From Anabaena lutea FACHB-196 (GTDB taxonomy: Bacteria; Cyanobacteriota; Cyanobacteriia; Cyanobacteriales; Nostocaceae): a stretch of 52,823 bases of DNA. Below, piece by piece: positions 11,142 to 36,635 of the stretch (its first letter is position 1; every line of letters starts with the position of its first letter). The stretch lies in assembly GCF_014698305.1 (NCBI RefSeq), contig NZ_JACJST010000034.1, forward strand, positions 1-52,823, in the 5' to 3' direction. Made by a program: the position numbers and the translations under genes. The notes under the pieces were generated by a model. The model saw only the letters and a program-made list of their open reading frames with translations, did no database searches and had not been told where the DNA came from.

Positions 11142-13271
11142 ATGAAACGGCGTGCGTTTTTAGAACGAATAAGCCGCTTACTGGCGGTATTGGGATTGAC
11201 TGAGGCTGAGTGGTTGACTTTGGGCGATCGCTATTATCAAGCTTTAGCACAACCTACCTCTCGGAAGTTGGCGTTATTAATAGGCATTAATAAATATCCA
11301 CATAGTCCCGCCCTTGGTGGTTGTCTGACTGATGTGGAATTGCAAAGGGAACTTTTGATTCACCGTTTTGGCTTTGCAACTTCAGATATTCTCACCTTAA
11401 CGGAGGAACAAGCCAGCCGAGAATTTATTGAAGCGGCTTTTTTCGATCATTTGGGTAAGCAAGCAAAAGCAGGTGATGTGGTTGTATTCCACTTTAGTGG
11501 TTATGGCACTCGTGTGAAATTGGGGACTTTGCCAGAAACTGTGCAGAATGCCATTATCCCAGTTGATGAAAAAAATATCCAAAACAAGCGCGTTGTCAAC
11601 TATTTATTAGAAGAAACACTTTTATTATTATTGCGATCGCTCCCCTGCGACAAAGTAACCGCAGTGTTAGATACTAGTTACCATGCCCCAACTACATCAC
11701 AGCCCTCAACTTGGCGAATTCGCACCCGCCCAGAATTACCAGTTGCAAAGTTAGCAGTCGAAGAACTGGAGTTTCTCCAACAACTCAAAACCCAGAACTC
11801 AGCCGCCAACAATGCTATTGTCCTCAAAGCCACCTCCGATGAAAATCAGCAAGCTGGAGAATTGCTGTTTTCTGGCTTTAGTGCCGGATTATTTACTTAT
11901 GCTTTGACTCAATATCTATGGGAAGCTACCCCAGCTACAACTATTCAATTTCTTCTTTCTCATGTGAGTAGTTCTATTTCCAAACTGGGAATTCAACAGC
12001 AGCCAGGGTTATTGAGTGAGCAAAAAAATCCTCAAACTGCTTTGATTGTCGATCACCTCCCCCTAGAAAGCACCAGCGCGGAAGGCTTTGTCACAGATGT
12101 AGATGAAGACGGTAAAACACTCCAGTTATGGTTAGCTGGCTTACCTCCGCAAATTCTGGAATACTACGGTGTTAATTCTCGATTAACTTTAGCTACTGGA
12201 GAAGAACTAATATTAAAGTCACGAACGGGATTAACTGCAAAAGCACAACTATCTCCAGAACCTACTACCACGCCACAAGTAGGACAACTTGTCCAAGAAG
12301 CAATCCGCGTATTACCGAGAAATATTAATTTAACCGTAGCCTTAGATACTGAGTTAGAAAGAATTGAGCGGGTAGACGCAACCAGCGCTTTTGCAGCAAT
12401 TACCCGCATTGCCAACATAGCAGCAGAACAGCCAGCAAATTATGTATTTGGTAAACTGCAACAAACTCCCAGCCGTTATGGTCTTTTTTCTGTTGGTGGT
12501 GAACTAATTCTCAATACTGCTGGGGAAGTTGGGGAAGCGGTGAAAGTAGCAGTACAGCGATTAAAACCGCAATTTTCCACTCTGTTAGCTGCAAAGTTAT
12601 GGCGACTGACAGAAAATGAAGGTTCTTCCCGCTTACCAGTGAAAGGGACTTTAGAGATTATTCACAACATCTCAACACGTGTAGTTATGCAACGGGAAAC
12701 CGGGCGCAGTCGGAGTGGGGAAACTGCGACTAACAAAGCATTGACTACTCAAGGAAAAGCCATTCCCACCGTTCCCGGCGGGAGTCGAATGCAGTACCGA
12801 GTGGAAAATTTGAGCGATCGCTCTATATATTTAATGCTGATAGGGTTAAATAATACTAGAAGTGCGATCGCTTTTTACCCTTGGCAAATCGCCCCTGAAG
12901 AAGTCTCAGACACCAAACCTCATTTACAAGAAATAGTTATTGCCCCAGGCCAAACTCGGAGGATACCACAAAATGATGCATCCATCGGCTGGATGCTACC
13001 TACACGCGCTCTATTTTGTGAACATCAATTAATTCTCAGCACTTCACCATTCAGCGAAACCCTGGAAGCTTTAAGAACTGCTAAGTATCCTACAGCTGAT
13101 CAACAGCCCATTAGTCCGTTAGTTAATCCTTTAGAAGTTGCCCAAGCTTTGCTGCAAGACTTGCATAACGCCAGTCAAGTCAAAACTGAAATGAATGGAA
13201 CTGCTACAGACTCATACATTTTAGATGTGAATAATTGGGCAAGTCTTAATTTTAGTTTTCAAGTACTTTAA
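11142..13271 (+). CDS. Caspase-like (orthocaspase) protein with substituted catalytic residues
   Basis: 709 residues. An N-terminal MKRRAF-LERISRLLAVLGL segment is Tat-like or membrane-proximal. A peptidase C14 (p20) domain follows from about residue 42 (KLALLIGINKYP, then DVELQRELL, then GDVVVFHFSGYG). Active orthocaspases have HFSGHG and D-x-C-H; here the His position is Tyr121 (HFSGYG) and the Cys position is Ser179 (LDTSYH). Both dyad residues are therefore replaced, making this a YS-type pseudo-orthocaspase, a class described in cyanobacteria. A long C-terminal region (about 320-709) contains a beta-rich segment with SRMQYRVENLSDRSIYLMLIG, which resembles the DUF4384-type tail often fused to these proteins. 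It is probably a binding or scaffold protein. It lies 101 bp after sat in the same orientation. Confidence 0.85.
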   Translation: MKRRAFLERISRLLAVLGLTEAEWLTLGDRYYQALAQPTSRKLALLIGINKYPHSPALGGCLTDVELQRELLIHRFGFATSDILTLTEEQASREFIEAAFFDHLGKQAKAGDVVVFHFSGYGTRVKLGTLPETVQNAIIPVDEKNIQNKRVVNYLLEETLLLLLRSLPCDKVTAVLDTSYHAPTTSQPSTWRIRTRPELPVAKLAVEELEFLQQLKTQNSAANNAIVLKATSDENQQAGELLFSGFSAGLFTYALTQYLWEATPATTIQFLLSHVSSSISKLGIQQQPGLLSEQKNPQTALIVDHLPLESTSAEGFVTDVDEDGKTLQLWLAGLPPQILEYYGVNSRLTLATGEELILKSRTGLTAKAQLSPEPTTTPQVGQLVQEAIRVLPRNINLTVALDTELERIERVDATSAFAAITRIANIAAEQPANYVFGKLQQTPSRYGLFSVGGELILNTAGEVGEAVKVAVQRLKPQFSTLLAAKLWRLTENEGSSRLPVKGTLEIIHNISTRVVMQRETGRSRSGETATNKALTTQGKAIPTVPGGSRMQYRVENLSDRSIYLMLIGLNNTRSAIAFYPWQIAPEEVSDTKPHLQEIVIAPGQTRRIPQNDASIGWMLPTRALFCEHQLILSTSPFSETLEALRTAKYPTADQQPISPLVNPLEVAQALLQDLHNASQVKTEMNGTATDSYILDVNNWASLNFSFQVL

Positions 13272-18233: not shown

Positions 18234-18590
18234 ATGGATAACCCGATGCTGCTCAAGTCTACAACCCGCCATATTCGCATTTTTGCGGCTGAAATGGACA
18301 AAGATGAACTAGTTCCTAGTAATCAGGTGTTGACCTTAGATGTTGACCCAGACAATGAATTTAACTGGAATGAAGATGCTCTGCAAAAAGTTTATCGCAA
18401 GTTTGATGAACTAGTAGAAGCCTCCAGTGGTGTAGACCTAACAGATTATAACTTGCGTCGTATTGGGTCAGACTTGGAGCATTATCTGCGATCGCTTCTG
18501 CAAAAAGGCGAAATTAGCTACAATCTCTCTAGCCGCGTTACTAACTACAGCATGGGACTACCCCAAGTTGCAGCTAACTCAAATCAATAA
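18234..18590 (+). CDS. ndhM: NAD(P)H-quinone oxidoreductase subunit M (NDH-1)
   Basis: 118 residues. NdhM is a small subunit of the oxygenic-photosynthesis-specific part of the cyanobacterial and chloroplast NDH-1 complex, on the cytoplasmic side of the thylakoid, working in cyclic electron flow and respiration. The family block [20 protein letters not shown], then [30 protein letters not shown] and [19 protein letters not shown], is essentially complete. No membrane segment, as expected. The ATG at 18234 gives [18 protein letters not shown]; the internal Met5 matches the start used in some species. A monocistronic gene is normal for ndhM. Confidence 0.93.
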
Positions 18591-19027: not shown

Positions 19028-20974
19028 ATGGAAAATGACGCGGCAACACTCTACTGCCCAAATGAATATTGTCAAGCTGCTAACCCCCTGACACACAAGT
19101 TTTGCCAGCGATGTTCCACACCACTACCCAAGCGTTACTTGTGGGCTGTGGGGGATAATTTAAGTCTGGGTAGTCCTGGAGAAATTTTAGCCGATCGCTA
19201 TCTAGTCATTGGTCAATCTATTATTTTTGATCTCAAGCCTGGTTTACTACCCCAAATACCTGAACTAGATAATTTCCAGAAAATTAAAGCCTATCTCAAA
19301 CTAATTCCCTACCGCTTACACATACCGCAAATATATGGGGTGTTAACTGTAAATAAAGAACAATTGCAGCCAGAAATATTACTTCTGGAAAAACCGCCTC
19401 TGTTAGTTGATGGTATAAGCTCTCAAGTACATCTGTGCAGCGAGTTAACCACTGTTTGGGGTGAAGCCTCATCAATCCGGCAAATTAATTGGCTCTGGCA
19501 ATTAGCTCATTTGTGGCAACCTCTTTTAACCGAAGGAGTAGCTTCCAGCTTATTAGATCCCAATTTATTGCGAGTTGAAGGGGCATTAGTGCGGTTACTG
19601 GAGTTGCATTTGGATTCAGAACCAGCACCAACATTGTCACAATTGGGAGAATTTTGGCGATCACTGCTGAAGGATGCCAAGCCAGCCATAGCTGAATTTA
19701 TCAAACAAATTAGTGATGCTCTCATTCAGGGCAAAATCAACTCATCTGAGCAATTAATTACAGTTCTAGATCAAGGACTAGCACAATTAGGGACAGGTGG
19801 CACTGGACGCACTTCTCCAGCACAAACCACCATTAAAATTGTCACCCAAACTAACACAGGCCCTAGTCGTCAACGTAATGAAGATGCCTGTTACCCCCCT
19901 ACTGGTGTCATTGTCAGTAAACCACCACAGCAAAACGCTTTAGCTATTGTCTGTGACGGTATTGGTGGACATGAAGGAGGTAACATAGCATCAACTTTAG
20001 CCATTGAAACCATTCAGCAACAGGTAATCGAACTAACCTCAGTTCCTTATGAAAACATCGATCCCTTACTGCTACTGAATGATTTGGAGCAGGCTGTAGC
20101 ACTCGTTAATGATAAAATTAGCCAGCGCAATGATACTGAACATCGTCAAGGGCGACAACGGATGGGAACCACCCTGGTAATGGCTTTGCCCATTGCCCAC
20201 GAAATGTATATCACCCATATTGGTGATAGTCGTGCCTATTGGATTACGCGCCAAGGTTGTTATCAAGTTACCCTAGATGATGATGTGGCTTCCCGCGAAG
20301 TGCGGTTAGGTTATGCTGTATACCGCGAAGCATTACAACATAGTGGTTCTGGCTCTTTGGTGCAAGCTTTAGGGATGAGTAAAAGCGCTTCATTGCATCC
20401 CACAGCCCAAAGGTTTATTCTTGATGAAGATGCTGTTTTTCTACTCACTTCTGATGGTTTGAGTGATTTTGACCGCGTAGAAGAATATTGGGAAACAGAA
20501 ATTTTACCTATTCTTTCTGGCGAGACAAATATAGAAAATGTTGCCCAGCGACTTATAGAAATCGCTAATACCAAAAATGGACACGATAATGTCACCATCG
20601 CTTTATTACATTATCAAGTCCAATACTCCGAACCCGATTTAACACTCAACGCGGACATCGGTACTATTTCCTCTAGCAAAACGGTAGATTTGACCCCAAA
20701 AATCACAAACGGCACAGTTTTGGAAAACTCTTACCAGCAAACTCAAGTCATTCCAGAAACCAAGCCGACTCGCACGTCTCAATTACCGCTACAGTTGCTA
20801 GTTCTTCTGGGGATACTTTTAGCATCTGGTTCACTGGGATATTGGATCAAAATCCAACGGCAGCTACCACCTCCGATTGCTAATCCAGTAAATCCATCTG
20901 TAAACCCACAACCAACAAACCTGGAAAACCAGCAAGATTTCTCGCCACCAGTTAGTCAACCACCTGCACCTTAG
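19028..20974 (+). CDS. Zinc-ribbon PP2C-type serine/threonine phosphatase, membrane anchored
   Basis: 648 residues. A zinc ribbon has Cys10, Cys15, Cys26 and Cys29. A region from about 45 to 250 has the general spacing of a degenerate protein kinase (RYLVIG near its start, LLLEKPPL in the middle, LLDPNLLRVEGALVRLLEL later) without catalytic residues. The PP2C domain runs from about 268 to 525, with metal-binding Asp in RNEDA, VCDGIGGHEGG (about 310), HIGDSRAYW (about 400), LLTSDGLSD (about 474) and GHDNVTI (about 518). A transmembrane helix (about 590-608) and a Pro/Asn-rich tail follow. It should remove phosphate from Ser/Thr proteins. The CHAT-FHA gene follows by 137 bp on the same strand, suggesting that the two work together. 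Confidence 0.88.
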   Translation: MENDAATLYCPNEYCQAANPLTHKFCQRCSTPLPKRYLWAVGDNLSLGSPGEILADRYLVIGQSIIFDLKPGLLPQIPELDNFQKIKAYLKLIPYRLHIPQIYGVLTVNKEQLQPEILLLEKPPLLVDGISSQVHLCSELTTVWGEASSIRQINWLWQLAHLWQPLLTEGVASSLLDPNLLRVEGALVRLLELHLDSEPAPTLSQLGEFWRSLLKDAKPAIAEFIKQISDALIQGKINSSEQLITVLDQGLAQLGTGGTGRTSPAQTTIKIVTQTNTGPSRQRNEDACYPPTGVIVSKPPQQNALAIVCDGIGGHEGGNIASTLAIETIQQQVIELTSVPYENIDPLLLLNDLEQAVALVNDKISQRNDTEHRQGRQRMGTTLVMALPIAHEMYITHIGDSRAYWITRQGCYQVTLDDDVASREVRLGYAVYREALQHSGSGSLVQALGMSKSASLHPTAQRFILDEDAVFLLTSDGLSDFDRVEEYWETEILPILSGETNIENVAQRLIEIANTKNGHDNVTIALLHYQVQYSEPDLTLNADIGTISSSKTVDLTPKITNGTVLENSYQQTQVIPETKPTRTSQLPLQLLVLLGILLASGSLGYWIKIQRQLPPPIANPVNPSVNPQPTNLENQQDFSPPVSQPPAP

Positions 20975-21111
20975 TGAACAATGCCTTTTCGGTATCCCAC
21001 ACTATCTTATAATGCAGGTGATAAACGAATAAAAAATTACCAGGTAAAAATTTCTGCCTGGACTAAGTTTATTGTTAATTATTTGTTCTTAAAGTTTAGT
21101 TTCTTGAATCC

Positions 21112-22689
21112 ATGTCCTGCCTGAATCTGGCGATCGCCCGTCTGGTAAATACTGGCACTGATAACTTCGCTATTTGGGTGGTTAAAGCTCCCTATCCCAG
21201 TGGTTATGTTTTGCGTGACTGTGTTTTTTCTACTGAACTTAGTCAAATTTGGCAAGAATGGCAGCAGATGTTTGCTGGTCATAATCCCTTGGATATTGTT
21301 TCATTGCCGACATTACCAGGAGTAAATACATTACCCATTGATTTCAATTTACCCGTGGCCGGTCAAACCACCAGTCCTTACAGTAGTCGTTTGATGCAAT
21401 ACCTAGGCATCAGTTTATGGCGTTGGGTATTCGATGGGTCAATTCTTGGTAGTCTAGAACGTAGTCGTGGTATTGCTATGGGTCAGAATAAACGGTTGCG
21501 CTTTCGTTTAGAAATTCGTGACCCTGATCTTATAGCTCTGCCTTGGGAAATTATGCAGCGTGAACCTGGCCAATCGGCAATATCTCTTTCCCAAGACATT
21601 TTATTCAGTCGCACTACTAGTGAAGTTGAACCTCTGCCAAATTTGCGAACCGATCCAGCTTTAAATGTCTTATTGGTTTTAGGACATGATGACAATCTGC
21701 AATTAGAAACAGAAGCTGCTATTCTTGAAAAAATATTGTCAGACTGTAGTCCATTAGGAAAAAATGCTTACGCGCCTTGTATGGTGAAGACACTCTTGCA
21801 ACCCACTCCACAACAGTTAATTCAAGAGTTAGAAACCAAAGCCTACAATGTCTTTTTTTTCGCTGGCCACGGTCTACCTGCTCCAGATGGTGGTTTATTA
21901 TTTTTGGGGTCAGATATGAACCTCAATGGTATAGAATTAGCGCAAGTATTAACACGTACAGGTGTCAAGTTGGGGGTCTTTAATGCCTGCTGGGGGGCGC
22001 AACCAGCGAAAATTAATCAACAAGTCATACCCGCTAGTAGTTTAGCAGAAGTACTCATCCGTCATGGTGTGCCTGCGGTATTAGCAATGCGGGATGAAAT
22101 CGCTGACCAAGAAAGTCACAGTTTTATTCAAGCTTTTACAGAAGGATTGCGATCGCGTAAACCAATTGATGAAGCAATGGCAGCAGCAAGGCAAGAACTG
22201 TTAACACTATATAAGTTCAATCAACCGGCTTGGACATTACCAGTTCTCTACCTGCATCCAGATTTTAATGGTGACTTGATCAAGAGTGTTGATGAAGGAA
22301 TTACAGAATTACCAGATACTGCTATATCTGGACTGGGTTCCCCAAAAACCACAGCATCATTGCGATCGCTCTCACCAGAAGGAAAAACTTGGTTATTGCG
22401 TTCTGGTGTCACCCGTATTGGTCGCACTAAGGATAATGATATTGTCATCCCTGAACTCTATATTTCCAAACGCCATGCCGAAATTTTATGCCGAAATACT
22501 CTCACCGGTACTACATCAGTGCAAACATACTACCTGCAAGATTTATCAACTTATGGTACAACTTGGTGTTTAGGTCCAAATGGCTGGCAACAAATCCTCC
22601 GAGAAGAAGTGCCTCTAAGATCGGGAATGCAATTAAAGTTTGGCAACGCTAAAGGTGAAACCTGGGAATTCCTAATTAAAAATTCCTAA
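21112..22689 (+). CDS. CHAT-FHA fusion protein
   Basis: 525 residues without signal peptide, so cytosolic. An N-terminal region of about 100 residues precedes a CHAT (caspase-like) domain with His in FFAGHG (about residue 251) and Cys in FNACWG (about 290); both catalytic residues are present. The C-terminal FHA domain (about 425-510: TRIGRTKDNDIVI, then SKRHAEI, then YGT) has the Arg, Ser and His used to bind phosphothreonine. A CHAT protease that can dock on phosphoproteins, next to a PP2C phosphatase, suggests phosphorylation-controlled proteolysis. That is inference; no cognate kinase is in the window. The N-terminal part resembles the CHAT-adjacent region of other cyanobacterial effector-like proteins. 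Confidence 0.88.
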   Translation: MSCLNLAIARLVNTGTDNFAIWVVKAPYPSGYVLRDCVFSTELSQIWQEWQQMFAGHNPLDIVSLPTLPGVNTLPIDFNLPVAGQTTSPYSSRLMQYLGISLWRWVFDGSILGSLERSRGIAMGQNKRLRFRLEIRDPDLIALPWEIMQREPGQSAISLSQDILFSRTTSEVEPLPNLRTDPALNVLLVLGHDDNLQLETEAAILEKILSDCSPLGKNAYAPCMVKTLLQPTPQQLIQELETKAYNVFFFAGHGLPAPDGGLLFLGSDMNLNGIELAQVLTRTGVKLGVFNACWGAQPAKINQQVIPASSLAEVLIRHGVPAVLAMRDEIADQESHSFIQAFTEGLRSRKPIDEAMAAARQELLTLYKFNQPAWTLPVLYLHPDFNGDLIKSVDEGITELPDTAISGLGSPKTTASLRSLSPEGKTWLLRSGVTRIGRTKDNDIVIPELYISKRHAEILCRNTLTGTTSVQTYYLQDLSTYGTTWCLGPNGWQQILREEVPLRSGMQLKFGNAKGETWEFLIKNS

Positions 22690-22840
22690 AGGAATAATTT
22701 CAACCGGAAAATTTCTGTTCTCGGCATTGGGTTTAATCCCCTACTTTTGATATAGAGAAACAATCATTGTTTTTTGCGGAAATTTGATTCTTCAAGTTGT
22801 AGCTGTCAACAAGGCTAATCAATTAATTGTGAGGTGAAAC

Positions 22841-23479
22841 ATGATTAATAAAATCAATGGTTTAGATATCGGCTCTGTTTTTCCATCTTCAGTAGATTTA
22901 GATTTATTAGAAGCACTACTACAACCTGAAGATGCTACTTATCCCTGGAATCCCGCTGATGAAGAATCAGAAGCTTATTTTTCCCAACTAGAGCAGCAGT
23001 TTGAGTGTCAGGATTTGCTAGCAGAAGACCTGACTACCAGAGCGGAGAATTTTTATCACCATCTAGATGACATTTGGTCTCAGGTTTCCCATTCTCAAAC
23101 TGACCATGATCAACAGCCATCTAATCGTCTTCAATCCGCTTTACATAGGGCTTTTTCTACCTCTGTCCCCTCAAATTGGCTCAATGCCATCGCCCAAAAA
23201 GCTGCGGAAATTATCACTTTAGAACAATCTACTAGTGATAAACTAGTGGAATGTGTGCAAGCTTTACTACCAAATTGGGGAACAGATGATCTGCTAGTCT
23301 TAGCTCGTCCTTTTGCCTATGCCATGCGAAGTAACGAACAACAAAACTTGGTATTTGTCACCAAAAATATTGAAAATCGAGACTGGACAAGTTTATCAGA
23401 AATAGAACAAGCAAAAGTTAGTTTAGCAATCGCTGACTATGCCTTCAAACAACTCTCTAGCTTGCAGACTGAATCCTAA
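22841..23479 (+). CDS. Unknown acidic protein downstream of CHAT-FHA
   Basis: 212 residues, acidic, mostly helical, with no signal peptide, membrane segment or motif I recognise. A strong ribosome site (GAGGTG) precedes the ATG by 6 bases. It lies 151 bp after the CHAT-FHA stop in the same orientation and could be the third gene of that operon. The C-terminal half (EQSTSDKLVECVQALLPNWG... DDLLVLARPFAYAMRS) reads like a compact helical domain. A candidate substrate or regulator of the CHAT protein by position only. Confidence 0.65.
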   Translation: MINKINGLDIGSVFPSSVDLDLLEALLQPEDATYPWNPADEESEAYFSQLEQQFECQDLLAEDLTTRAENFYHHLDDIWSQVSHSQTDHDQQPSNRLQSALHRAFSTSVPSNWLNAIAQKAAEIITLEQSTSDKLVECVQALLPNWGTDDLLVLARPFAYAMRSNEQQNLVFVTKNIENRDWTSLSEIEQAKVSLAIADYAFKQLSSLQTES

Positions 23480-23979
23480 ATTTTTCTCTCATCACTGGGC
23501 TGATATCAAATTAAGTCGATATTTATTTTCAACTCTTTGTAGTTCTGTTTTTCTGTGTATTAAAGTCTCTGGCTGAATTTCCATTTTTTATTCATATTTG
23601 GTTCAGCATAAAATACGTATAAACTGATTACCATCATTGCCTTATTTATAGCAGGAGTCAGGAGACGCTACGCAGACCTCCGGTTCAGGAGACGCTTCGC
23701 AGACCTCCGGTTCAGGAGTAAAACCCTCTTGTAGTGAGAGTTTCATGATCAATTGATGTCCTAACCACCCTGTCCACGGCTATAAAATCTAAGTCTAACA
23801 TCCAAACTGGCATAATCTAAGGCGTAGAGATTCATGAAGCTGATACTTGTGAGGGACTGGGGAGATGAGGAGATGGAGAGATTTTTAGATTTTAGATTTT
23901 AGATCGGAGTTAATTAAATACAATCCAAAATCCGAAATTCAAAATCGAATCACCAATCACCAATTACCCCAGAAATGTT
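23480..23979. other. 500-bp convergent intergenic region, mainly repeats
   Basis: Contains the 27-bp tandem repeat at 23658-23718 and heptamer-type A/T repeats at about 23884-23966 (TTTTAGATTTTAGAT and CAATCACCAATCACCAATTA types). No gene. No clear terminator for either convergent transcript. Confidence 0.6.
23658..23718. repeat. 27-bp tandem repeat, 2.3 copies
   Basis: Units start at 23658 and 23685 with a partial third at 23712; they differ by one base (GCTACGC versus GCTTCGC). The unit contains the reverse complement of the dispersed repeat at 9620 and 13895. Confidence 0.8.
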
Positions 23980-25350
23980 TTATTTTGGTTCGAGAAAGCG
24001 AGTTGCAAAATTTTGCGATCGCGTTGGAGATAATGCTCGTGCTTTCAGAATTGCCGCCATCAAAAAAGCGTAAGATAAAACCCCAACTACCACCAACAGC
24101 AAAGCATTGATTGAACCTGTAGCATTCCACAAAGCATGAAGTGCGGAAGCGCTTAAATACCCAACTGAGAGAATTTGCCAACTCATCAGCGGCTTGAGGA
24201 CAGCTAACCCGATAAAATAACCCAAGTATCCACTGTAAGCCATATGTCCGGCTACAGAGCCTAAAATTCGCGGAATCAGTAGTTGCAAACCCACCAACTG
24301 GCCTGCACCTATGCCATCTTGTTGGGTAACATTTTGGGTGATCACAGGCACATATTGACCAAGAGTTTCTAGCAAAGTAAAACCCACAGCCGAAGCAGTT
24401 CCCAGCAAAATACCATCTAGAGGTTCCCAAACGCCGATCCGTTCGCGCCAAGGTGATGGTAATGAGTTACCTATGAAATAAGCGCCTAATACGGGCAATG
24501 CCTTTAGTAATTCCTCCATTAACCCAGCACCAAAAAACATCCGCACCAGCAATTCTGTGAAGGTGATTGACTCTTGAGATGAGGGCAAACTTCCAGGAAG
24601 GATAACGCGAAAGACAAAGATCAGAAAATCTAATACAGGACTAAGCAAAATCAGTGTTGTACTCAATGCCATCGAAATGAGTACCCACCAAGGTTTCGGT
24701 TTCCCACAAAGTTGGTACACAAAGTAGTAAGCAGCAAAGGCAATGTAAGACCCAACAATCAATTGATTTGCTTGGGGATTGCCTACTGTCGCAAACATCA
24801 GCACTACAAATACTACTGTCAGGATTCCCGGTACTAAGTAAGCTTTCCGTGTTAAATCTTTCCCAGTGGAAATAATTGGAAACAGTTGTGTGAAGCTAAC
24901 TGAATCATGCTGTGATGGCAATTGTTTATTTTTAGCAGATGGTAGTTCCTTCCCGTGGTTAGCTGACATCACAGTTGGTTGAGAGGGAAATTCATACTCA
25001 AAAATGAATTGCGGACCATCTGCACCTAGAGAAATGCGATCGCCTGGGTGCAATTCTTGAGAACCTTGCAACAGTTGTCCATTTAACAAAGTTCCATTGG
25101 CACTATTCAAATCACAAATCACCCAGCTGAATCTGCTATCTGGAGATAACGAAAGGGGTCGAACCACCGCATGACGACGAGATACCATCCGGTACATCAT
25201 GGCATCCAAGACAACTTGGCAGCTGGGGTCACGTCCAATGACCGTCTCTTTAGTGGGAAGCAGTGAGTAGCGGGCTTCTGACCCAGAAGCTACGACCTTA
25301 CTAGACACTAGCCGCAGAAATGCATTATGTCTTGCGTTGTTGCCTGTCAT
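23980..25350 (-). CDS. FHA-PrsW fusion: membrane protease with phosphothreonine-binding domain
   Basis: 456 residues. An N-terminal cytosolic FHA domain (about 30-115: TVIGRDPSCQVVL, VSRRHAVV, LNSANGT) carries the phosphothreonine-binding Arg, Ser/Arg-His and Asn. A linker of about 50 residues leads to a multi-spanning membrane region matching PrsW/RsiW-degrading intramembrane proteases: EELLK (about 277), FTLLE (about 322), GHMAYSG (about 367) and HALWNATG (about 403) supply the conserved Glu and His residues. PrsW-type enzymes cut membrane proteins, classically anti-sigma factors. The FHA domain implies substrate or partner choice by phosphorylation. It is convergent with the PP2C/CHAT-FHA genes, 500 bp away. 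Confidence 0.85.
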   Translation of the reverse strand: MTGNNARHNAFLRLVSSKVVASGSEARYSLLPTKETVIGRDPSCQVVLDAMMYRMVSRRHAVVRPLSLSPDSRFSWVICDLNSANGTLLNGQLLQGSQELHPGDRISLGADGPQFIFEYEFPSQPTVMSANHGKELPSAKNKQLPSQHDSVSFTQLFPIISTGKDLTRKAYLVPGILTVVFVVLMFATVGNPQANQLIVGSYIAFAAYYFVYQLCGKPKPWWVLISMALSTTLILLSPVLDFLIFVFRVILPGSLPSSQESITFTELLVRMFFGAGLMEELLKALPVLGAYFIGNSLPSPWRERIGVWEPLDGILLGTASAVGFTLLETLGQYVPVITQNVTQQDGIGAGQLVGLQLLIPRILGSVAGHMAYSGYLGYFIGLAVLKPLMSWQILSVGYLSASALHALWNATGSINALLLVVVGVLSYAFLMAAILKARALSPTRSQNFATRFLEPK

Positions 25351-25776: not shown

Positions 25777-26229
25777 CTAAAACAGATTAAATTCTGCCAT
25801 TGCTGCGGCAAAATTTTTGTTTTCATGTCCTGAACGACTAAGTTTAATCAGAGCAAAACGTTGTAAAAGTGTTAAAGCAAACCATTGTTGTAACGTAATA
25901 GTAACACCCATTTCTTGTGCTTTCTCTTGAAGGCTAGGTGGTATAGTTTTAGCATCCATCCAAGGGGGAAGAGATTCAATAGGTAATTGGGCAGGTGGTT
26001 TACCTGTAAGTTCTAAAATTAATTTTTGTAGATACTCTTGGTAAGATTGAATCTCTATTGCTGTCAAGCAGGGTAATTCAACTAAAGCTGTACGTTCTGC
26101 TAGATTCATCTGGTTCCACTCAGATAATCTGAGTTTGATACCACAGGTATCTAATTTGTAACGTACTTGCATCGGTATGCAACGTAGATTATCAACAAAT
26201 TCTGTTTCAAATTCAAATAACTTGGACAT
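25777..26229 (-). CDS. Nitrate reductase-associated protein
   Basis: 150 residues matching the conserved cyanobacterial family named for its genetic neighbourhood with nitrate reductase (Pfam Nitr_red_assoc). Recognisable are FEFETEFVDNLRCIPMQVRY, KLDTCGIKLRLSEWNQM and ERTALVELPC near the N-terminus and the TLQQWFALTLLQRFALIKL segment near the end. Soluble, helical. The molecular role is not established; an accessory role for NarB or its regulation is suggested only by synteny, which holds here. It begins 16 bp after the PsiE-like gene and is probably co-transcribed with it. Confidence 0.85.
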   Translation of the reverse strand: MSKLFEFETEFVDNLRCIPMQVRYKLDTCGIKLRLSEWNQMNLAERTALVELPCLTAIEIQSYQEYLQKLILELTGKPPAQLPIESLPPWMDAKTIPPSLQEKAQEMGVTITLQQWFALTLLQRFALIKLSRSGHENKNFAAAMAEFNLF

Positions 26230-26245
26230 AAAATTAAAACCTATT

Positions 26246-26704
26246 CTAATGTTCTTTTCCAGAATTGTTACTCCGAATTATAAAATAACTAATTGATAGG
26301 GAAAGAATAGCAATACCTAAACCTATAATTTCTATACCTTCAGTTACTTTTAAATCAAGAATAATAATTTTGCGAGCAATTGCAATTAGCGAAGTAACAA
26401 TAACTAATTCAACTTGTAAAACGTGCTTTTTTAGGTAGCCTGTAATATTTTCTAATATTTCCAAAGCAATCAGAACATTTAGAAATAATCCAAACGTTTT
26501 AAACAATGCCTGACTAAAACTGCCTTCTGCTGGGGAAAGTATCTCCTTAATTATAAATATTGTTAAATCGGCAAGTGTTGCAAAAATTACCAGTACCATC
26601 AGTAGAGATAGCAATTTTGAAACTATGACCTCCACAATTTCGATGAGGTGCATGAAGTTTTTATCGCTGGTAAGTTCTATCAATTTTTTGATTAGTTTAC
26701 TCAT
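26246..26704 (-). CDS. PsiE-like membrane protein
   Basis: 152 residues from ATG at 26704 (MSKLIKKLIEL), preceded by CAGGG at a suitable distance; a GTG at 26743 would add 13 residues without a ribosome site. Four hydrophobic helices (for example LLSLLMVLVIFATLADLTIF and GLGIAILSLSISYFIIR) and the charged loop motif VELVIVTSLIAIARKIIILD fit the phosphate-starvation-inducible PsiE family. Function is unknown. It sits between narB and the nitrate-reductase-associated gene, 16 bp from the latter, so it may be a membrane partner in nitrate metabolism or simply read through from that operon. Confidence 0.75.
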   Translation of the reverse strand: MSKLIKKLIELTSDKNFMHLIEIVEVIVSKLLSLLMVLVIFATLADLTIFIIKEILSPAEGSFSQALFKTFGLFLNVLIALEILENITGYLKKHVLQVELVIVTSLIAIARKIIILDLKVTEGIEIIGLGIAILSLSISYFIIRSNNSGKEH

Positions 26705-26983
26705 CTGTAGTACCCTGTTTAAAATCAACCAAAAAACTATCACTATAAAAGAAAAATCCTCTAGATTTATCTACAGGATAAGAAAGGCTATTTATCTATC
26801 TAAGTAAACCACATTGGCTGATTATAAGAAATGTATTTATTTATATTTAAGACTTTATTATCCAAGATACTGGCTCATGATTAAGTCCTAGAAAATTATG
26901 TATCAAAAAACCTAATCATAACTATTGAATATTAATATTAGGTTAAGTTAATAATTCCCAGTTTAGGAAACATATTAAGCAGC

Positions 26984-29239
26984 TTACCATTGTGAGGACA
27001 AAACTTGATGATTTGTGGTAGTAATTTCTACAGAGATAGGTACTAATTGCACAGCACAAGCCTTTAATTCTGGTTGTAAAGAATCTGGGCAAGCTTCTGA
27101 GTGAGTCAGTGCATTAGCTTCAGCATCATCTGCCCAAAGCTTACCCCAGTGCATGGGGACAAAAACAGTACCAGGAGAAATAGCTTTTGTGACTTTAGCA
27201 GGAAACTTAGTTATACCACGGCGCGATCGCACTTCCAACCACTGATGATCAAGAATTCCCAACGTCGCAGCATCACGGGGATGAATTTCAATAAACGGTT
27301 GGGGGTGCATTTGGCGAATTTTCTCAATTCTACCCGTGCGCGTTTGTGTGTGCCAATGTCCGTAAAGTCGTCCAGTAGTTAACACAAAAGGATAATTCTC
27401 ATCAGGTGGTTCTGCGAGTCCTTTTGAATAATAGGCCCCAAATCTAGCGCGTCCATCAGGAGTATGAAAGCGTAAATCTGTATACAAGCGTTTTCCGTCC
27501 TTGAGTGAAGAAGTTTTTTCTTTCGCTTCTAGTGCAAAACTCCCAACTCCTGTTTCCGCATCAATAAATATTGGTTGTGCTTTCTTTTCAGGGTGTGGCC
27601 ATTGAGTCGGTCCCTTTGTTTGTAAAACCTCATGACTCAAACCCGACATATCACAAGGACGCTGACGAGTTAATTGCACAAACTCCGCATAAACTTCCGC
27701 AGAATTATTAAAAGCAAATTCCTTCTCAAAACCTAAACGTCTTCCCACTTCTGCAAAAATTTCCCAATCTGGTTTTGCTTCTCTTGGTGGTTCACGAAAA
27801 GCTGAACACAATGTTACTCTTCTTTCAGAATTAGTCATGATCCCAGTTTTTTCACCCCACTGTGCCGCAGGTAATAAAACATGAGCATAAGCTGATGTTT
27901 CTGTAGGGTAATAAGCATCTTGATAGATAGTAAAAGGAGATTTTAATAAAGCTTTTTTAGTGCGTTCTAAATCTGGCATACTCACAGCGGGGTTCGTAGC
28001 TGCAATCCATAATAAACCCACATTTCCAGTTTCCAAACCAGTAATCATTTCCCAAGCAGTCAAACCAGGAACAGAGGAAATTTGTCCTCTTTTGAGTTTC
28101 CAAAAATCCTCAACTTCTGCTCGATGTTGGTCATTTTTCACCAATCGATATCCCGGTAACAAATGCGCCAAACCTCCCGCTTCTCTTCCTCCCATAGCAT
28201 TAGGTTGACCGGTAAGAGAAAAAGGACCCGCACCAGGTTTACCGATTTGTCCCGTCATTAAATGTAAATTAATAATAGTTCTAACTTTAGCAGTACCTTC
28301 CGAAGATTGATTGACACCCATTGACCATAAAGAAAGTACAGATTTAGATTTTCCCCAATATTTAGCAGCCGTTTCTAAATCTTCAATACTAATACCACAT
28401 CGACTAGCTACCACCTCTGGAGAATAATGACGAATTACTTCTGCATAAGCTGGAAAATTGCTGGTACATTCATCCATGAATAATGTATCGATGTAATTCC
28501 ACTTCATTAATAAATGGGCGATACCATTTAATAGATCAATATCTGTACCAGGACGAATAGCTAAATGTAAATCGGCTGCTTCTGCGGTAGGAGTGCGACG
28601 AGGATCAACCACAATCATTTTCACGTGACGATTTTTTTTATGATATTTCGCTAACTTATTAAAAACAATTGGATGACATTCTGCTGTATTCGTCCCAATT
28701 AAAAAAGCACAATCAGTTAACTCCAAATCGTCATAACAACAAGGAGGACCATCAGCACCAAAACTTTGAATGTACCCAGACACCGCACTAGACATACAAA
28801 GACGGGAATTAGCATCAAAATTATTAGTTCCTAAACAACCTTTGAGTAATTTTTGAGCAATATAATAATCTTCGGTTTGAAATTGTCCAGAACCATACAT
28901 ACAGATAGAATCTGTTTCTTGGTTCAAGCGCAATGTTTGCATCCGTTGGGTAATAATATCAAAAGCTTCATTCCAACTCACACGGCGAAATTCTTGATCT
29001 AAAGAATCGCGCATCATTGGATAATGCAATCTATTTTTATCTAATGATTCAGCAATTGTTGCACCTTTAACGCATACCATTCCTTGACTAGATGGATGTG
29101 ATTTATCACCACGTACCCGCCAAGTTGGAGTTCCTTCACTATCTCGATTTGTGGCTTTTCCATGTTGGGCTGGTGGGGAAACTTCTAAACCACAACCAAC
29201 ACCGCAATAAGGACAAAGTGTTTTGGTAAATTCATTCAT
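26984..29239 (-). CDS. narB: Assimilatory nitrate reductase (ferredoxin-dependent)
   Basis: 751 residues of the molybdopterin oxidoreductase superfamily. It reduces nitrate to nitrite in the cytoplasm with electrons from reduced ferredoxin. The N-terminal 4Fe-4S motif is C-P-Y-C-G-V-G-C plus a later Cys in GMVCVKG. The likely molybdenum-ligand Cys is in SRLCMSSAV (about residue 147). The bis-MGD binding regions ([33 protein letters not shown]) and the C-terminal molydopterin dinucleotide domain ([10 protein letters not shown]) are intact. Last core gene of the nir cluster. No nitrate reductase small subunit is needed in cyanobacteria. The molybdenum cofactor genes are not in the window. Confidence 0.95.
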
Positions 29240-29260
29240 GGTATTTATAATTTTTTATTT

Positions 29261-29398
29261 CACGCAGAGACGCGGAGAGGAGGAAAGTGTGATTTTGACA
29301 ATTTCTTTGTATTCTTACCTTTGCGTCTAACGCACTTCGTGCTAAAGCCTACGGCTCCCGTTAGGGATACGCTTCGCTGGTGCGCCTTTGCGTGAGAC
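29261..29398. repeat. Palindromic repeat between nrtP and narB
   Basis: TTCACGCAGAGACGC at the left and GCGCCTTTGCGTGAG at the right form imperfect terminal inverted repeats. The interior carries CTTTGCGTCTAACGCAC and a GGCTCCCGTTAGGGATACGC palindrome, both common dispersed repeat modules. It fills most of the 161-bp gap. Related modules lie at 34975-35033. Confidence 0.65.
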
Positions 29399-29400
29399 AA

Positions 29401-30891
29401 TTATTCTTCTATAAAAACAGGTTGATGAATAATTATTTCTTCAGTTTCATCACAAGCAAATGAATCTTTTGGTTCTTTGAGGAAGAATGCACACATAAAT
29501 GAGCAAATCATGGCGGCTATTCCCATTGTGGCAAATAGGGTTGATGGGTCAGTTAAGCTATAAATTGTGAGATAAACTACACCACCAAAATTACCGTAAG
29601 CGCCAACGTTTCCTGCTATTTGTCCAGTTGCTTCTTTTTTAATTAATGGGACTATTCCGTAAGTTGCACCACAACCAGCTTGAGCAAAGTAAGCAGCGAA
29701 CATTGTCGCAGCAATTGCTAAGGGGATAGGCCAATCTTTGTTAATAAAATGTGCCATTAAATAACCAAGAGCAATGCCAGCAGAAACTATTGTCATTGTC
29801 CATTTACGAGAACCTAATTTATCAGAAATTAAGCCTCCACTAGGACGGGAAACTAGGTTTAAGAAGGGATAGGTGGCAGCGATCATTCCGGCTACTACGT
29901 GTTCTAATGCAAAGGTTTTTTCAAAGAAGGAAGGTAGCATGGAAACGACTGCAAGTTCTGAACCAAAGTTGGTAATATAAGTGAATTCTAGTAATGCTAC
30001 TTGACTAAATTGATAACGTTGATTTGCAGGGTAAGTTTTTTGTCCAGTTAGTAATTCTTTATTGACTTGATATGCTTGATAATTTTGGTAAGCAAATAAT
30101 CCTGCTAACGCCAACCAAACTATATACATTTGGCTGAGTGTAAGGAAGTGAATATTTTTTTGTTCTAACCGCCAAGCTAATAAGCCTAATGCAAAAATTA
30201 ACCCAAAGTTAGACACAATCATCGCCCAAAAGCTTTTGATTGATGTGACTTCTAAAGAGCCATTTTTCTTGGGCTTTTTATAAACTTTACCAATGGGTGT
30301 ATCTTGAACGCTTTTGTAGTAGATTACGCCATACATTCCGGCTATAATTCCTGTTAATGCAATTGTTAATCTCCAGTTAGAACCACCACCACCTAAAAAG
30401 CTAGTTACAATTGCAATTGTTGGTAAAGCAAATTCTGCTCCAAATGCTCCAAAGTTACCCCAACCGCCATAAATACCTTGAGCAATTCCCATTTCTTTGG
30501 GAGGAAACCATTCGGCTACCATGCGGATACCAACAACAAATCCAGAACCGACTATTCCCATTAATAAGCGACTAATAACCAATTGGTTGAAGTCTTGGGC
30601 TAATGCTGTTGCTAAACAGGGAATAACAGCAAACATTAATAATATGGAATAGGTAATTCTGGGGCCAAATTTATCCAGTAACATCCCAATAATGATGCGG
30701 GCTGGAATTGTTAAAGCTAAATTGCAAATACCTAAAGTTTTAATTTGTTCAGGTAATAAATTTAATTCTTTACCAATTGTGGTAGCGAAGGGTGCAAAGT
30801 TAAACCAACAGACAAAGGTGAGAAAAAAAGCAAACCAAGTCTGATGTAAAATGCGATAGCGACCCTGAAACGAAAATAATCCCTTCAACAT
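29401..30891 (-). CDS. nrtP: MFS nitrate/nitrite permease, NrtP type
   Basis: 496 residues with about 12 membrane helices. The nitrate/nitrite porter family signature GWGNFGAFGAEFALP and the second-half GAYGNFGGVVYLTIY are present, as is the MFS loop motif GMLLDKFGPR. This is the single-component, high-affinity permease known in some marine and filamentous cyanobacteria (also called NapA). It lies between nrtD and narB, with 230 bp upstream and 161 bp downstream, both occupied by repeats. It is unusual beside a complete nrtABCD set, because most cyanobacteria use one or the other in this operon. Two transporters could differ in affinity or regulation. Confidence 0.9.
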   Translation of the reverse strand: MLKGLFSFQGRYRILHQTWFAFFLTFVCWFNFAPFATTIGKELNLLPEQIKTLGICNLALTIPARIIIGMLLDKFGPRITYSILLMFAVIPCLATALAQDFNQLVISRLLMGIVGSGFVVGIRMVAEWFPPKEMGIAQGIYGGWGNFGAFGAEFALPTIAIVTSFLGGGGSNWRLTIALTGIIAGMYGVIYYKSVQDTPIGKVYKKPKKNGSLEVTSIKSFWAMIVSNFGLIFALGLLAWRLEQKNIHFLTLSQMYIVWLALAGLFAYQNYQAYQVNKELLTGQKTYPANQRYQFSQVALLEFTYITNFGSELAVVSMLPSFFEKTFALEHVVAGMIAATYPFLNLVSRPSGGLISDKLGSRKWTMTIVSAGIALGYLMAHFINKDWPIPLAIAATMFAAYFAQAGCGATYGIVPLIKKEATGQIAGNVGAYGNFGGVVYLTIYSLTDPSTLFATMGIAAMICSFMCAFFLKEPKDSFACDETEEIIIHQPVFIEE

Positions 30892-30948
30892 TTAAATTTT
30901 CCTCGTGATTTATTAATTTCTTGGAGGTAGGGAATTATGAAATACTTA

Positions 30949-31112
30949 GAGGTTGTTTGAAAACTTTTTCTTGTGGTATCTAATACTTGTAGATCCCCCT
31001 AAATCCCCCTTTTTAAGGGGGACTTTGATTGATTTATCCCCCCCTTATCAAGGGGGGTGAGGGGGGATCTGAAATTGCTTGATACACCATGAGGGACTTT
31101 TCAAACGTCCCC
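30949..31112. repeat. MITE-like element, copy 1 (nrtD-nrtP gap), flanked by TTA
   Basis: The left end GAGGTTGTTTGAAAACT and the reverse complement of the right end (GGGGACGTTTGAAAAGT) are imperfect terminal inverted repeats. TTA occurs immediately outside each end (30946-30948 and 31113-31115), consistent with target duplication. The inside is G/C-run palindromes (CCCCCTTTTTAAGGGGG and similar). Same family as 35084-35232. Confidence 0.8.
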
Positions 31113-31121
31113 TTACACTAA

Positions 31122-31967
31122 TTACTCTTCTAAATGAGCGCAGCGACGATATAGGAAGTCTAAGGCGTAGTTTCGTAGGTTGTAATATTCTGGGTTTTCC
31201 ATGATGCGACGACGGTTGCGAGGACGGGAGAAGGGTATTTCTAAAACTTCGCCAATATTTGCCGCAGGGCCGTTTGTCATCATTACGAGTTTGTCTGCTA
31301 AGAAAAGTGCTTCATCAATGTCATGGGTAATCATTAAAACTGTGACTTGATGTTCTGACCAAATTTGCAGTAGTTCTTCTTGTAATTCTTCTTTGGTGAT
31401 GGCATCTAAAGCGCCGAAAGGTTCGTCTAATATGAGGAGTTGGGGACGGATGGCTAAAGCACGAGCGATCGCTACTCTTTGTTTCATCCCCCCAGATATT
31501 TGACTGGGTTTCTTTTCGGCTGCTTCTGTCAGTCCTACCATTGCTAAATGTTCTCTGACTATTGCTCGTTTTTCAGCTTGGCTTTTTCTGGGAAATACGG
31601 AATCAACAGCTAGGTAAACGTTATCAAAAACATTCAACCAAGGTAGTAAACAATAGTTTTGAAATACCATCATTCTGTCTGGGCCTGGTTCTGTGATGGG
31701 TTGACCTTGCAACCACACGACACCGTTGGTAGGTTTATTAAATCCAGAAACCATGTTGAGGAGTGTAGATTTTCCACAGCCAGAATGTCCTATCAAACAA
31801 ATAAATTCACCTTCACGGACTTTGAGGTTAATGTCATCTAGAACAGTGTATGGGCCTTCAGCAGTAGGGTAAATTTTGTTGACACCATCAATTACTAAAA
31901 AATCTTCTTTTTTCTGACTTTGTAATTGTTGGTTTTGGGTTTTGTTCTTAAAGTTTAATGCTGTCAT
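31122..31967 (-). CDS. nrtD: Nitrate ABC transporter ATP-binding protein NrtD
   Basis: 281 residues. ABC ATPase with Walker [10 protein letters not shown] (about 60-68), signature [14 protein letters not shown], Walker [13 protein letters not shown] and the switch His in ITHDIDEA. It is cytosolic, paired with NrtC to drive NrtB. It lacks the C-terminal NrtA-like domain of NrtC, as expected. It lies 99 bp downstream of nrtC, a gap filled with short repeats. Confidence 0.95.
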   Translation of the reverse strand: MTALNFKNKTQNQQLQSQKKEDFLVIDGVNKIYPTAEGPYTVLDDINLKVREGEFICLIGHSGCGKSTLLNMVSGFNKPTNGVVWLQGQPITEPGPDRMMVFQNYCLLPWLNVFDNVYLAVDSVFPRKSQAEKRAIVREHLAMVGLTEAAEKKPSQISGGMKQRVAIARALAIRPQLLILDEPFGALDAITKEELQEELLQIWSEHQVTVLMITHDIDEALFLADKLVMMTNGPAANIGEVLEIPFSRPRNRRRIMENPEYYNLRNYALDFLYRRCAHLEE

Positions 31968-31984
31968 GATTTTTTTGTAATGGG

Positions 31985-32062
31985 TATTTCAATTTTGGAT
32001 TTTGGATTGTTTTTTAACACTAATCTAAAATTATTCTGACTCCTGACTCCTTGATCTCCTGA
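31985..32062. repeat. Short repeats in the nrtC-nrtD gap
   Basis: TTTTGGATTTTGGATT-type heptamers are followed by CTGACTCCTGACTCCTTGAT-type repeats. They occupy nearly all of the gap upstream of nrtD. Confidence 0.7.
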
Positions 32063-32066
32063 CTCC

Positions 32067-34040
32067 TTATATAAAAACTTCTTCAACTCGCAACTGACGT
32101 TTAATTTCCAAACTTCTGAGATATTCTATGGGTTCTGAAGGATTAAAGACTTTGCCATCAAATAATTGAATTGTTTCTTCTCTACCAATATCTAAAATTC
32201 CCATTTCTCGTGCGGCTGCACCAAAGATATCTGAACGGCAAACTCTATCAATTACTTCTATCCAGTTTTTGGGGAAAGCTACCAAACCCCAACGGGCTAG
32301 TTGAGTTAAAATCCATAGCATTTCATTACGGTCTGGGTAGTTGGCTTTGTTGAAATAAAATTGATGTGAAGTCTGGGATTGGTTGTAATTATTCTGCTGG
32401 TAATTATCTATTAAACCTGGACGAAGATGCAGAGAATTACTACCCAAATAATTAGGTTGAGAAATTAATGTGAGAATTTCTTCCCGGTTGCGAATGTCAT
32501 CGCAATATTCACAAGCTGCTAATAGGGCTTTTACTAATGCTAGATGTGTTTGGGGATTTTCCTGCGCCCAATCTTCTCGCACTCCTAATATTTTGTCTGG
32601 ATGTCCTTGCCAAAGTTCTGAGGTAATAGCGATGATAAAACCCAAATTTTGATCAACTGCGTGAGAGTTCCAAGGTTCTCCTACACAGTAACCATCAATT
32701 TTTCGGTCTTGGAGGGAAGTCACCATTTCTTGTGGTGGAATTACCATCAAACTCACATCTACATCAGGTTGAATCCCACCTGCTGCTAACCAATAGCGCA
32801 ATAATAGGTTTTGCATGGATGCAGGATGGACAATTCCCAAGGTGTGGGTTTTGTCTAAGTCAGCGTTGATGGTGGCTTGAAAGTCTGCTAAGTTTCTTAC
32901 TCCAGTGTTGAGTAGTTCTTTGCTGAAGGTAATGGCGCTACCATTGCGGGAGAGGGTCATGGCTGTCACCATTGACACCGCATTTTTACCTCCAGCACCT
33001 AAAGTCATGGCTAGGGGCATTCCTGCTACCATTTGGGCTGCATCAAGTCTACGAGTTGCTACACCTTTGGCGATGTCTTTCCAGCTAGTTTCGCTGTTAA
33101 GGTTGACTTCTAAACCGTATTCGGCAAAGAAACCTTTTTCTTTGGCAACTATTAAGGGCGCGGCTTGGGTGAGGGGAATATAGCCAATTTCTAAATGAAC
33201 TTTTTCTAAATTGTTGTTGGAAATAATTGCAGGTGCTGTGGGTTGTTTTTGGCGTTTTTTAGCTTGTTTTTGTTGGTTGAGAAAGTAAATTATTTCGTTT
33301 CGCAAGTTGTAATAACTGGGATGGTTAACTACTTCCAAACGTTGACGGGGACGGGGAATAGGAACTTCCAGAATTTGCCCAATGTGTGCTTCTGGTCCAT
33401 TGGTCAACATGACAATGCGATCGCTCAATAATAAAGCCTCATCAACATCATGTGTCACCATTACACAGGTAATTCTGTGTTCATTGCAGATTGTCATTAA
33501 TTGTGCTTGTAAATTGCCCCTTGTCAGGGCATCCAAAGCGCCAAAAGGCTCATCTAGCAGTAATAGTTTAGGACGGGTAGCTAAAGCACGAGCGATCGCA
33601 ACTCGCTGTTTCATTCCCCCCGATAATTCACTAGGACGTTTGTTAGCTGCACGACGCAACCCCACCATATCAATATGTTCTTCTATTATTCCTCGACGTT
33701 CTCCTTTAGGTAGATTTTGATGTACTTCATCCACAGCCAAAGCGATGTTTTCCCGCACAGTTAACCAAGGAAGCAACGAGTAATTTTGAAAAACTACCAT
33801 CCTATCAGGTCCAGGTTCTCTTACTTCCCGACCTTCCAGAGTCACACCACCAATACTAGCTTGATCTAAGCCAGCAATAATATTTAGTAAAGTGGACTTA
33901 CCACAACCTGAATGTCCAATTAAGGAAACAAATTCACCTTCAGAAATTTTCAACTCAATATTTTTTAAAGCGATATATTTACCACCATCAGGGAGGTTAA
34001 ATATTCGGTCTACGTGGTCAATTTCTAAAAAAGTCTTCAT
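32067..34040 (-). CDS. nrtC: Nitrate ABC transporter ATP-binding/sensor protein NrtC
   Basis: 657 residues from ATG at 34040 ([20 protein letters not shown]). The longer frame from 34079 would translate a heptamer repeat ([11 protein letters not shown]), so I reject it. An N-terminal ABC ATPase (Walker [10 protein letters not shown], signature LSGGMKQRV, Walker [13 protein letters not shown]) is fused, after a Lys/Gln-rich linker, to an NrtA-like solute-binding domain (from about residue 285: [22 protein letters not shown]). In this family the C-terminal domain mediates inhibition of transport by ammonium or nitrate. Full length and without disrupting changes. Confidence 0.95.
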
Positions 34041-34071
34041 AGGGAATAGGGAATAGGGAACAGGGAACAGG
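34041..34071. repeat. Heptamer repeats immediately upstream of nrtC
   Basis: AGGGAATAGGGAATAGGGAA then CAGGGAACAGG: 7-bp units abutting the nrtC start codon. On the coding strand they read TTCCCTATTCCCT and leave no normal Shine-Dalgarno sequence. Confidence 0.8.
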
Positions 34072-34090
34072 TAATTCAAATAATTCGTAA

Positions 34091-34933: not shown

Positions 34934-34974
34934 GTATTTCTCCTAAGTAAAATATTAAAAATCTCTTTTCCTTC

Positions 34975-35033
34975 TCTTCTCTGCGTCTTTGCGCCTACCC
35001 TGCGGGATCTCCTGACGGAGATTGCGTGAGACT
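34975..35033. repeat. Palindromic repeat in the nrtA-nrtB gap
   Basis: TCTCTGCGTCTTTGCGCC...GATTGCGTGAGAC: the same modules as the nrtP-narB repeat, with a CTGCGGGATCTCCTGACGGAG insert. Confidence 0.6.
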
Positions 35034-35060
35034 TAAAAAATTTAATTAATCCAGTAGACT

Positions 35061-36574: not shown

Positions 36575-36635
36575 TGTCAACTCTCAGTCAGGTTTTATTT
36601 AGGTTTACGGTTATGTCTGGATTTTGGCGATTGAT

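Follow-up and report, generated by a model that had tools for sequence, protein, structure and literature searches.

The genes at the locus

Four neighbouring genes are considered here, lying within a stretch of 52,823 nucleotides from Anabaena lutea FACHB-196 (contig NZ_JACJST010000034.1, positions 1 to 52,823), called the window in what follows. Two of the four are at the centre of the argument: the gene for a protein that joins a CHAT domain to an FHA domain (CHAT-FHA) and the gene for a protein of 212 amino acids, for which the name U212 is used. A preliminary description, made by reading the DNA without database searches, had placed the four genes as follows, and the list of open reading frames agrees with it in coordinates and strands.

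19028-20974, plus strand: PP2C phosphatase gene, 648 amino acids (open reading frame list, Pfam)
21112-22689, plus strand: CHAT-FHA gene, 525 amino acids (open reading frame list, Pfam, HetF model)
22841-23479, plus strand: U212 gene, 212 amino acids, PatU3-like, predicted all-helical
22940-22948, plus strand: YPW motif codons within the U212 gene, residues 34-36, near-invariant
23980-25350, minus strand: FHA-PrsW fusion gene, 456 amino acids, convergent to the other three

The gap from the PP2C gene to that for CHAT-FHA is 137 bp and the gap from there to the U212 gene is 151 bp. None of the four is a chance reading frame, because they are conserved across many cyanobacterial families. Pfam bears out the domains that had been read from the sequence: PP2C_2 in the first protein (1.4e-11), CHAT (2.7e-19) and FHA (5.2e-13) in the second, PrsW (1.6e-36) and FHA (7.6e-17) in the last. 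U212 had been called an unknown protein, and nothing in Pfam rises above its cut-off, the one match being to RE_endonuc at 0.11. Within the best 80 of 229 matches, from which records of the strain's own genome may be absent, the best named match is Anabaena catenula FACHB-362, whose U212 is 98% identical.

CHAT-FHA is the closest relative of HetF in its genome

The catalytic pair of the CHAT domain, His253 and Cys293, is kept in all 68 aligned sequences. The best NCBIfam match of CHAT-FHA is the model for HetF (NF045509, 836 positions), matched over positions 72-388 with 138 bits. CHAT-FHA is not HetF itself, because this score is far under the cut-off of 1200, and the true HetF has its own gene elsewhere in the genome (1484 bits). 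There are 15 CHAT places in that genome, 14 of them over the cut-off, and among the 15 HetF and CHAT-FHA are reciprocal best matches at 135 bits, the next scores being 68.6 and 58.5; some of the frames compared stop short where the fetched stretch runs out. HetF (Anabaena alr3546) is a CHAT protease that acts in cell division and in heterocyst differentiation; CHAT-FHA is 31% identical to it over 316 amino acids, with the catalytic His and Cys aligned. The two differ in what accompanies the protease domain. In HetF, transmembrane and TPR regions flank CHAT, according to a figure legend in PMC8406250, whereas CHAT-FHA carries an FHA domain (434-511) in their place. No TPR was found in it by Pfam at E ≤ 1.

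The pocket by which FHA domains bind phosphothreonine is marked by a canonical Arg, Ser, His and Asn. Among the 67 CHAT-FHA sequences that have a residue at the positions concerned, R438 is kept in 64, S452 in 67 and H455 in 65. The place of the canonical Asn is occupied by Tyr in 53, by Phe in 12 and by Asn in 2 (n=67). To judge from these residues, the phosphothreonine pocket of the CHAT-fused FHA appears altered.

CHAT proteases occur in defence systems, and CHAT-FHA might be a cell-death or anti-phage effector, with U212 as its target or as an immunity protein. PADLOC does return a weak SAVED_CHAT match for CHAT-FHA (E 9.6e-4), and the PP2C protein matches PDC-M21C at 0.0048. At E ≤ 0.1 it gives no further match to a defence component for CHAT-FHA, U212 or FHA-PrsW. 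Each of the 32 genomes in the window's family has a single match to CHAT-FHA, whose nearest relative, HetF, is a cell-division protein. A role in defence strikes me as scarcely credible.

U212 is distantly related to PatU3

A profile of 70 U212 sequences, run against the 6.06 Mb of the strain's own genome (E ≤ 10), finds, besides U212, a single further place (E 0.008, profile positions 99-197). That place is the open reading frame immediately downstream of hetZ, a gene that the HetZ model recognizes with 637 bits (cut-off 550). By its position it is PatU3, the gene order hetZ-patU5-patU3 or hetZ-patU being described in PMC12288457 and PMC7377430. When the U212 alignment was compared by hhalign with an alignment of PatU3 (45 rows), E was 1.2e-5 in one direction and 5.4e-7 in the other, with about 100 columns aligned. 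The PatU3 alignment draws on 45 of 50 fetched loci (L146, L150, L151, L152 and L168, whose translated span is interrupted by a stop codon, were left out), and 12 of the 62 PatU3 genomes lie outside it. The score of 53.8 compares with at most 24.9 in 150 column-shuffled PatU3 alignments, with 24.7 when PatU3 is reversed and with 21.2 when U212 is reversed. Against FHA-PrsW and against CHAT-FHA the hhalign probability for U212 is 0.4.

The likeness extends to predicted structure. The model of U212 is all-helical, and the helices predicted at 111-124, 131-142, 148-164 and 187-211 of U212 and at 85-98, 105-116, 121-133 and 157-175 of PatU3 come in the same order in the alignment. What PatU3/PatU (alr0101) has in common with U212 is a homologous helical domain of about 100 amino acids and, before that domain, an [FY]PW motif. 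In U212 this is YPW (Y34 in 68, P35 in 67 and W36 in 68 of 70 sequences). In PatU3 it is FPW, upstream of the helical domain (F44 in 44 of 45 sequences, with Y in 1; P45 and W46 in all 45). The motif follows a predicted helix in both proteins and lies outside the aligned columns. PatU3/PatU differs from U212 in being encoded directly downstream of hetZ: hetZ and the PatU3 reading frame are on contig C20 and U212 is on C28.

Several points weigh against the kinship. The hhalign probabilities for the two directions, 81 and 92%, fall short of about 100, and U212 and PatU3 are 22-23% identical over the shared domain. A PatU3 profile run against the strain's own genome (E ≤ 10) does not match U212, and the kinship therefore rests on the U212 profile together with the profile-profile comparison. 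The model of U212 is of middling confidence (predicted local distance difference test, pLDDT, 73.8; predicted template-modelling score, pTM, 0.50). Compared with the PDB, it gives 199 matches at E ≤ 10 and none at E ≤ 0.001; PatU3 gives 1014 matches at E ≤ 10, the best at 5.1e-3, with immunoglobulin-like and other beta-sandwich chains ranking high. The model of PatU3 has a C-terminal beta domain (strands 176-277) that U212 lacks. With all this weighed, I hold it highly likely that U212 is homologous to PatU3, as a distant relative.

Two other leads concerning U212 were set aside. YPWN was considered as a wider target motif: it has 16 DNA matches in the own genome (1 in a control read backwards), 3 of which are in frames of at least 200 amino acids, U212 included, and none of the others was adopted as a candidate. 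A globin identity for U212 was considered too. Of the 70 members, 1 has a Pfam Globin match (3.8e-4) and 2 match a HisK-N-like globin (best 0.0082), which is probably chance among 70 scans.

Two co-occurring pairs across cyanobacterial genomes

Each protein was searched for in 292 cyanobacterial genomes, the set being taken from the genome handles to be the same each time. The thresholds were E ≤ 1e-3 for U212 and PatU3, E ≤ 1e-40 for CHAT-FHA and FHA-PrsW, E ≤ 1e-60 for PP2C and E ≤ 1e-100 for HetF; 31 of the 62 HetF matches are over the curated cut-off. The counts and phi values below ignore shared ancestry. U212 is found in 70 genomes, CHAT-FHA in 68, FHA-PrsW in 64 and PP2C in 98, this last count including a paralogue.

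CHAT-FHA and U212 occur together in 67 genomes (phi 0.962). HetF and PatU3 behave in the same manner, 61 of the 62 genomes that hold each being common to both (phi 0.980). The mixed pairings, namely CHAT-FHA with PatU3, HetF with U212, CHAT-FHA with HetF and U212 with PatU3, reach 0.863-0.866. CHAT-FHA is present without HetF in 10 genomes, and HetF without CHAT-FHA in 4. There are genomes with the new pair alone (for example G095, G097, G105, G143, G235 and G253) and others with the HetF pair alone (G033, G045, G135). This is the pattern expected of two matched pairs. Within the set of 66 genomes with a PP2C match outside the window's family, 34 have both CHAT-FHA and U212, 3 have U212 only, 1 has CHAT-FHA only and 28 have neither.

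Gene order points the same way. Among the 69 U212 loci fetched, 49 have CHAT-FHA in the same stretch: all 31 from the window's family and 18 of the 38 from outside it (11 of 18 families). In every one of these 49 the two genes share a strand and lie no more than 565 bp apart. In 17 of the 67 genomes with both, the two are not in one stretch; contigs that end near the gene (L048, L057, L078) could hide the link in some of these. In the 20 outside-family U212 loci without CHAT-FHA nearby, no protein group other than U212 itself is kept as a neighbour in more than 6.

The remaining two genes are looser neighbours of this core pair. FHA-PrsW is in the stretch of 37 of the 69 U212 loci, on the opposite strand every time. 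All four genes stand together in 23 of 31 family loci and in 6 of the 38 outside, these 6 coming from 6 families. Among those 38 loci, PP2C is found in 11, FHA-PrsW in 10 and an unrelated gene, ndhM (18234-18590 in the window, upstream of the PP2C gene), in 6. The counts for PP2C and FHA-PrsW are only moderately above that for ndhM, so their proximity to U212 is not very informative on its own. FHA-PrsW and U212 share 54 genomes, FHA-PrsW being alone in 10 and U212 in 16 (phi 0.750). The synteny check that the preliminary description had called for thus finds co-occurrence beyond close relatives, yet no obligate unit: the core is the CHAT-FHA/U212 pair, and the four genes are not an obligate system.

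Perhaps the neighbourhood has been conserved by descent and holds separate genes that have no common function. The retention of ndhM in 6 of 38 outside-family loci would agree with this, and the gaps of 137 and 151 bp leave room for separate promoters. Set against it are the co-occurrence of CHAT-FHA and U212 even where they are unlinked and their position on the same strand, close together, where they are linked. I judge descent without function to be highly improbable. That CHAT-FHA and U212 are functionally coupled, on the other hand, I consider very likely.

A proposed second protease and target

I propose that CHAT-FHA and U212 form an FHA-bearing protease and target pair paralogous to HetF and PatU3, and I put the probability of this reading, cleavage included, at roughly 0.55. 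PatU3 is a HetZ-binding negative regulator. HetF can cleave it, according to PMC12288457. HetF, too, co-occurs with a PatU-type protein, as CHAT-FHA does. U212 is probably the target of the CHAT-FHA protease, because the pair resembles this known pair of protease and target. CHAT-FHA would bind U212 through the PatU-like domain or the YPW motif and cleave it, limiting its amount. U212, like PatU3, may be a negative regulator of a partner that works in cell division or in differentiation. The FHA domain, replacing the transmembrane and TPR part of HetF, would place or gate the protease, possibly with the neighbouring PP2C in control. The setting for all this would be the growth of filaments and the development of heterocysts. 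The preliminary description had suggested that U212 might be a substrate of CHAT. Near-perfect co-occurrence and homology with PatU3 now speak for this indirectly, and cleavage itself I infer.

A number of observations count against the proposal. U212 is present without CHAT-FHA in three genomes (G005, G123 and G207) at the CHAT-FHA threshold of E ≤ 1e-40, below which G123 and G207 were not examined, and CHAT-FHA is present without U212 in G237. Co-occurrence reflects shared ancestry in part, for the mixed pairings already stand at 0.86. The covariation of distances is not specific either: over 43 genomes the partial correlations are 0.40-0.46 for all three pairs (of CHAT-FHA, U212 and PatU3). 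In the window's own family (25 genomes), U212 follows CHAT-FHA given PatU3 at 0.70 and PatU3 follows CHAT-FHA given U212 at 0.04; there, U212 also follows PatU3 given CHAT-FHA, at 0.54. For the remaining 18 genomes the three values lie at 0.20-0.23.

One of the three genomes, G005, can be viewed directly (locus L041, 6400-8150). It has no long open frame between PP2C and U212, and PP2C, U212 and FHA-PrsW keep their order.

Could U212 be a regulator or adaptor of CHAT-FHA (an inhibitor, an activator or a targeting subunit) and not its substrate, the pair being near-obligate as the protease needs its partner? Co-occurrence and gene order fit this equally, and a partner that stays bound might well show the conserved domain and near-invariant YPW seen here. 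It is less easily squared with the retention of U212 without CHAT-FHA in three genomes or with the account in PMC12288457 that PatU3, the closest characterised relative, is cleaved by HetF. Such a role seems to me unlikely, if worth keeping in mind.

If U212 is indeed the target, then HetF, a caspase-like protease of bacteria whose target in development, PatU3, is known, would have a counterpart in a second protease and PatU-domain pair, differently distributed. That would mean a repeated regulatory design and a concrete role for an unknown protein. It also suggests the features by which proteases of the HetF type recognize a target, namely a PatU-like domain plus an [FY]PW motif. In the literature searched, which leaves most subscription journals outside its scope, I found no description of the CHAT-FHA/U212 pair.

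More tentatively, and with a good deal of doubt, the proposal can be widened. Filamentous cyanobacteria may keep two co-duplicated cassettes of CHAT protease and PatU-domain protein, each protease recognizing its own target by [FY]PW and the helical domain. In the second, gating would fall to the FHA domain, its pocket altered, and to an adjoining membrane phosphatase of the PrpJ type, tying protein phosphorylation to the proteolytic control of division and differentiation.

The phosphatase and the intramembrane protease

The PP2C protein consists of an N-terminus with four Cys, a middle region of about 220 amino acids, the PP2C domain and, as judged by eye, a C-terminal hydrophobic segment. 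D286, D310, D476 and D520 are intact in all 30 aligned sequences, out of 40 obtained (L079 and L116 were dropped for a stop codon and 8 more omitted to shorten the alignment). More specific models fall under their cut-offs: 262.1 bits against 374 for the Ser/Thr phosphatase model PRK14559 and 160.6 against 230 for the Stp1-type PP2C model. The zinc ribbon of the preliminary description fares unevenly, since the Pfam match to DZR (0.031) is under the cut-off and the four Cys (10, 15, 26 and 29) are invariant in the 30 sequences. The kinase-like part that it saw finds no counterpart: the middle region has no kinase match in Pfam at E ≤ 10 (5 sequences), and its profile (alignment A6, 22 of the 30 rows) has no match in the PDB at E ≤ 10.

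The PP2C of the window is short, 648 amino acids as against 722-864 in 34 of 39 extracted orthologues. Other short ones are L079-L081 (659-666), L102 (629) and L118 (655).

From its gene order, the phosphatase is possibly PrpJ. PrpJ (prpJ is given as all1731 in PMC6161253) is a plasma-membrane PP2C of heterocyst maturation, by a title cited in that paper. The two are alike in being PP2Cs with a C-terminal hydrophobic segment. The strain's own genome has two PP2C matches of this type, and a title in the literature names two similar PP2Cs, PrpJ1 and PrpJ2. The tentative identification comes from gene-number arithmetic. If it is right, then by the same arithmetic the downstream neighbours would be all1730 and all1729, and U212 would be all1729. 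In Table 4 of PMC2821919 (2010), all1729 belongs to a core set of ten genes listed for filamentous cyanobacteria alone, together with hetR, hetZ and patU3. Should this guess from gene numbers hold, one unexplained gene of filament formers would gain a testable function.

PrsW intramembrane proteases are recognized by the motifs EExxK and FxxxE and two His. FHA-PrsW has these motifs in common with them and differs by its fusion to an FHA domain. E279, E280, K283, E328, H369 and H405 are kept in all 24 aligned sequences, out of 38 obtained, and its FHA domain has the canonical Arg, Ser, His and Asn in 24 of 24. FHA-PrsW is a conserved convergent neighbour, whose role in the pair is unsupported beyond its location.

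The preliminary description had joined all four genes in a single circuit: phosphothreonine would direct CHAT-FHA and FHA-PrsW to their substrates, and the PP2C phosphatase would reset the signal. Something can be said for this. The window has the four genes side by side, as do 23 of 31 other loci of its family and 6 of 38 outside; the FHA of FHA-PrsW is canonical; and all 64 genomes with FHA-PrsW have a PP2C match, in a PP2C count that includes the paralogue. The parts do not hold together well, however. FHA-PrsW and U212 are apart in 26 of 292 genomes (FHA-PrsW being missing from 16 of the 70 with U212 and present in 10 without it), and outside the family the linkage of PP2C (11 of 38) and PrsW (10 of 38) is only moderately over that of ndhM. 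The CHAT-fused FHA has Tyr or Phe at the place of Asn in 65 of 67 sequences, and no kinase turned up in the PP2C protein. A common circuit of the four is, in my estimate, improbable.

The surrounding region

Between the U212 and FHA-PrsW genes there is a tandem repeat of a short sequence (gacgct.cgcagacctccggttcaggag) at 23655-23720, read from the sequence.

On the 3' side of the four genes, on the minus strand, come narM, a PsiE-family gene and then the nitrate genes, which to judge by their domains are narB, an MFS permease gene, nrtD, nrtC, nrtB, nrtA and nirA. In this nitrate assimilation set (25777-38204, minus strand), to which narM and the PsiE-family gene also belong, an ABC-type transporter (nrtA, B, C and D-like) is accompanied by the MFS permease, whose gene lies between nrtD and narB.

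Caspase-like proteins are also encoded at 2099-5284 (minus strand), 11142-13271 (plus) and 43852-46491 (minus), two of them TPR-CHAT and one of the caspase family (Peptidase_C14). Counting CHAT-FHA, there are four caspase-like proteins in 52.8 kb. The gene at 40662-43325 (minus strand) encodes a protein with CHASE2 and an adenylate/guanylate cyclase domain, and a DUF928 gene adjoins it.

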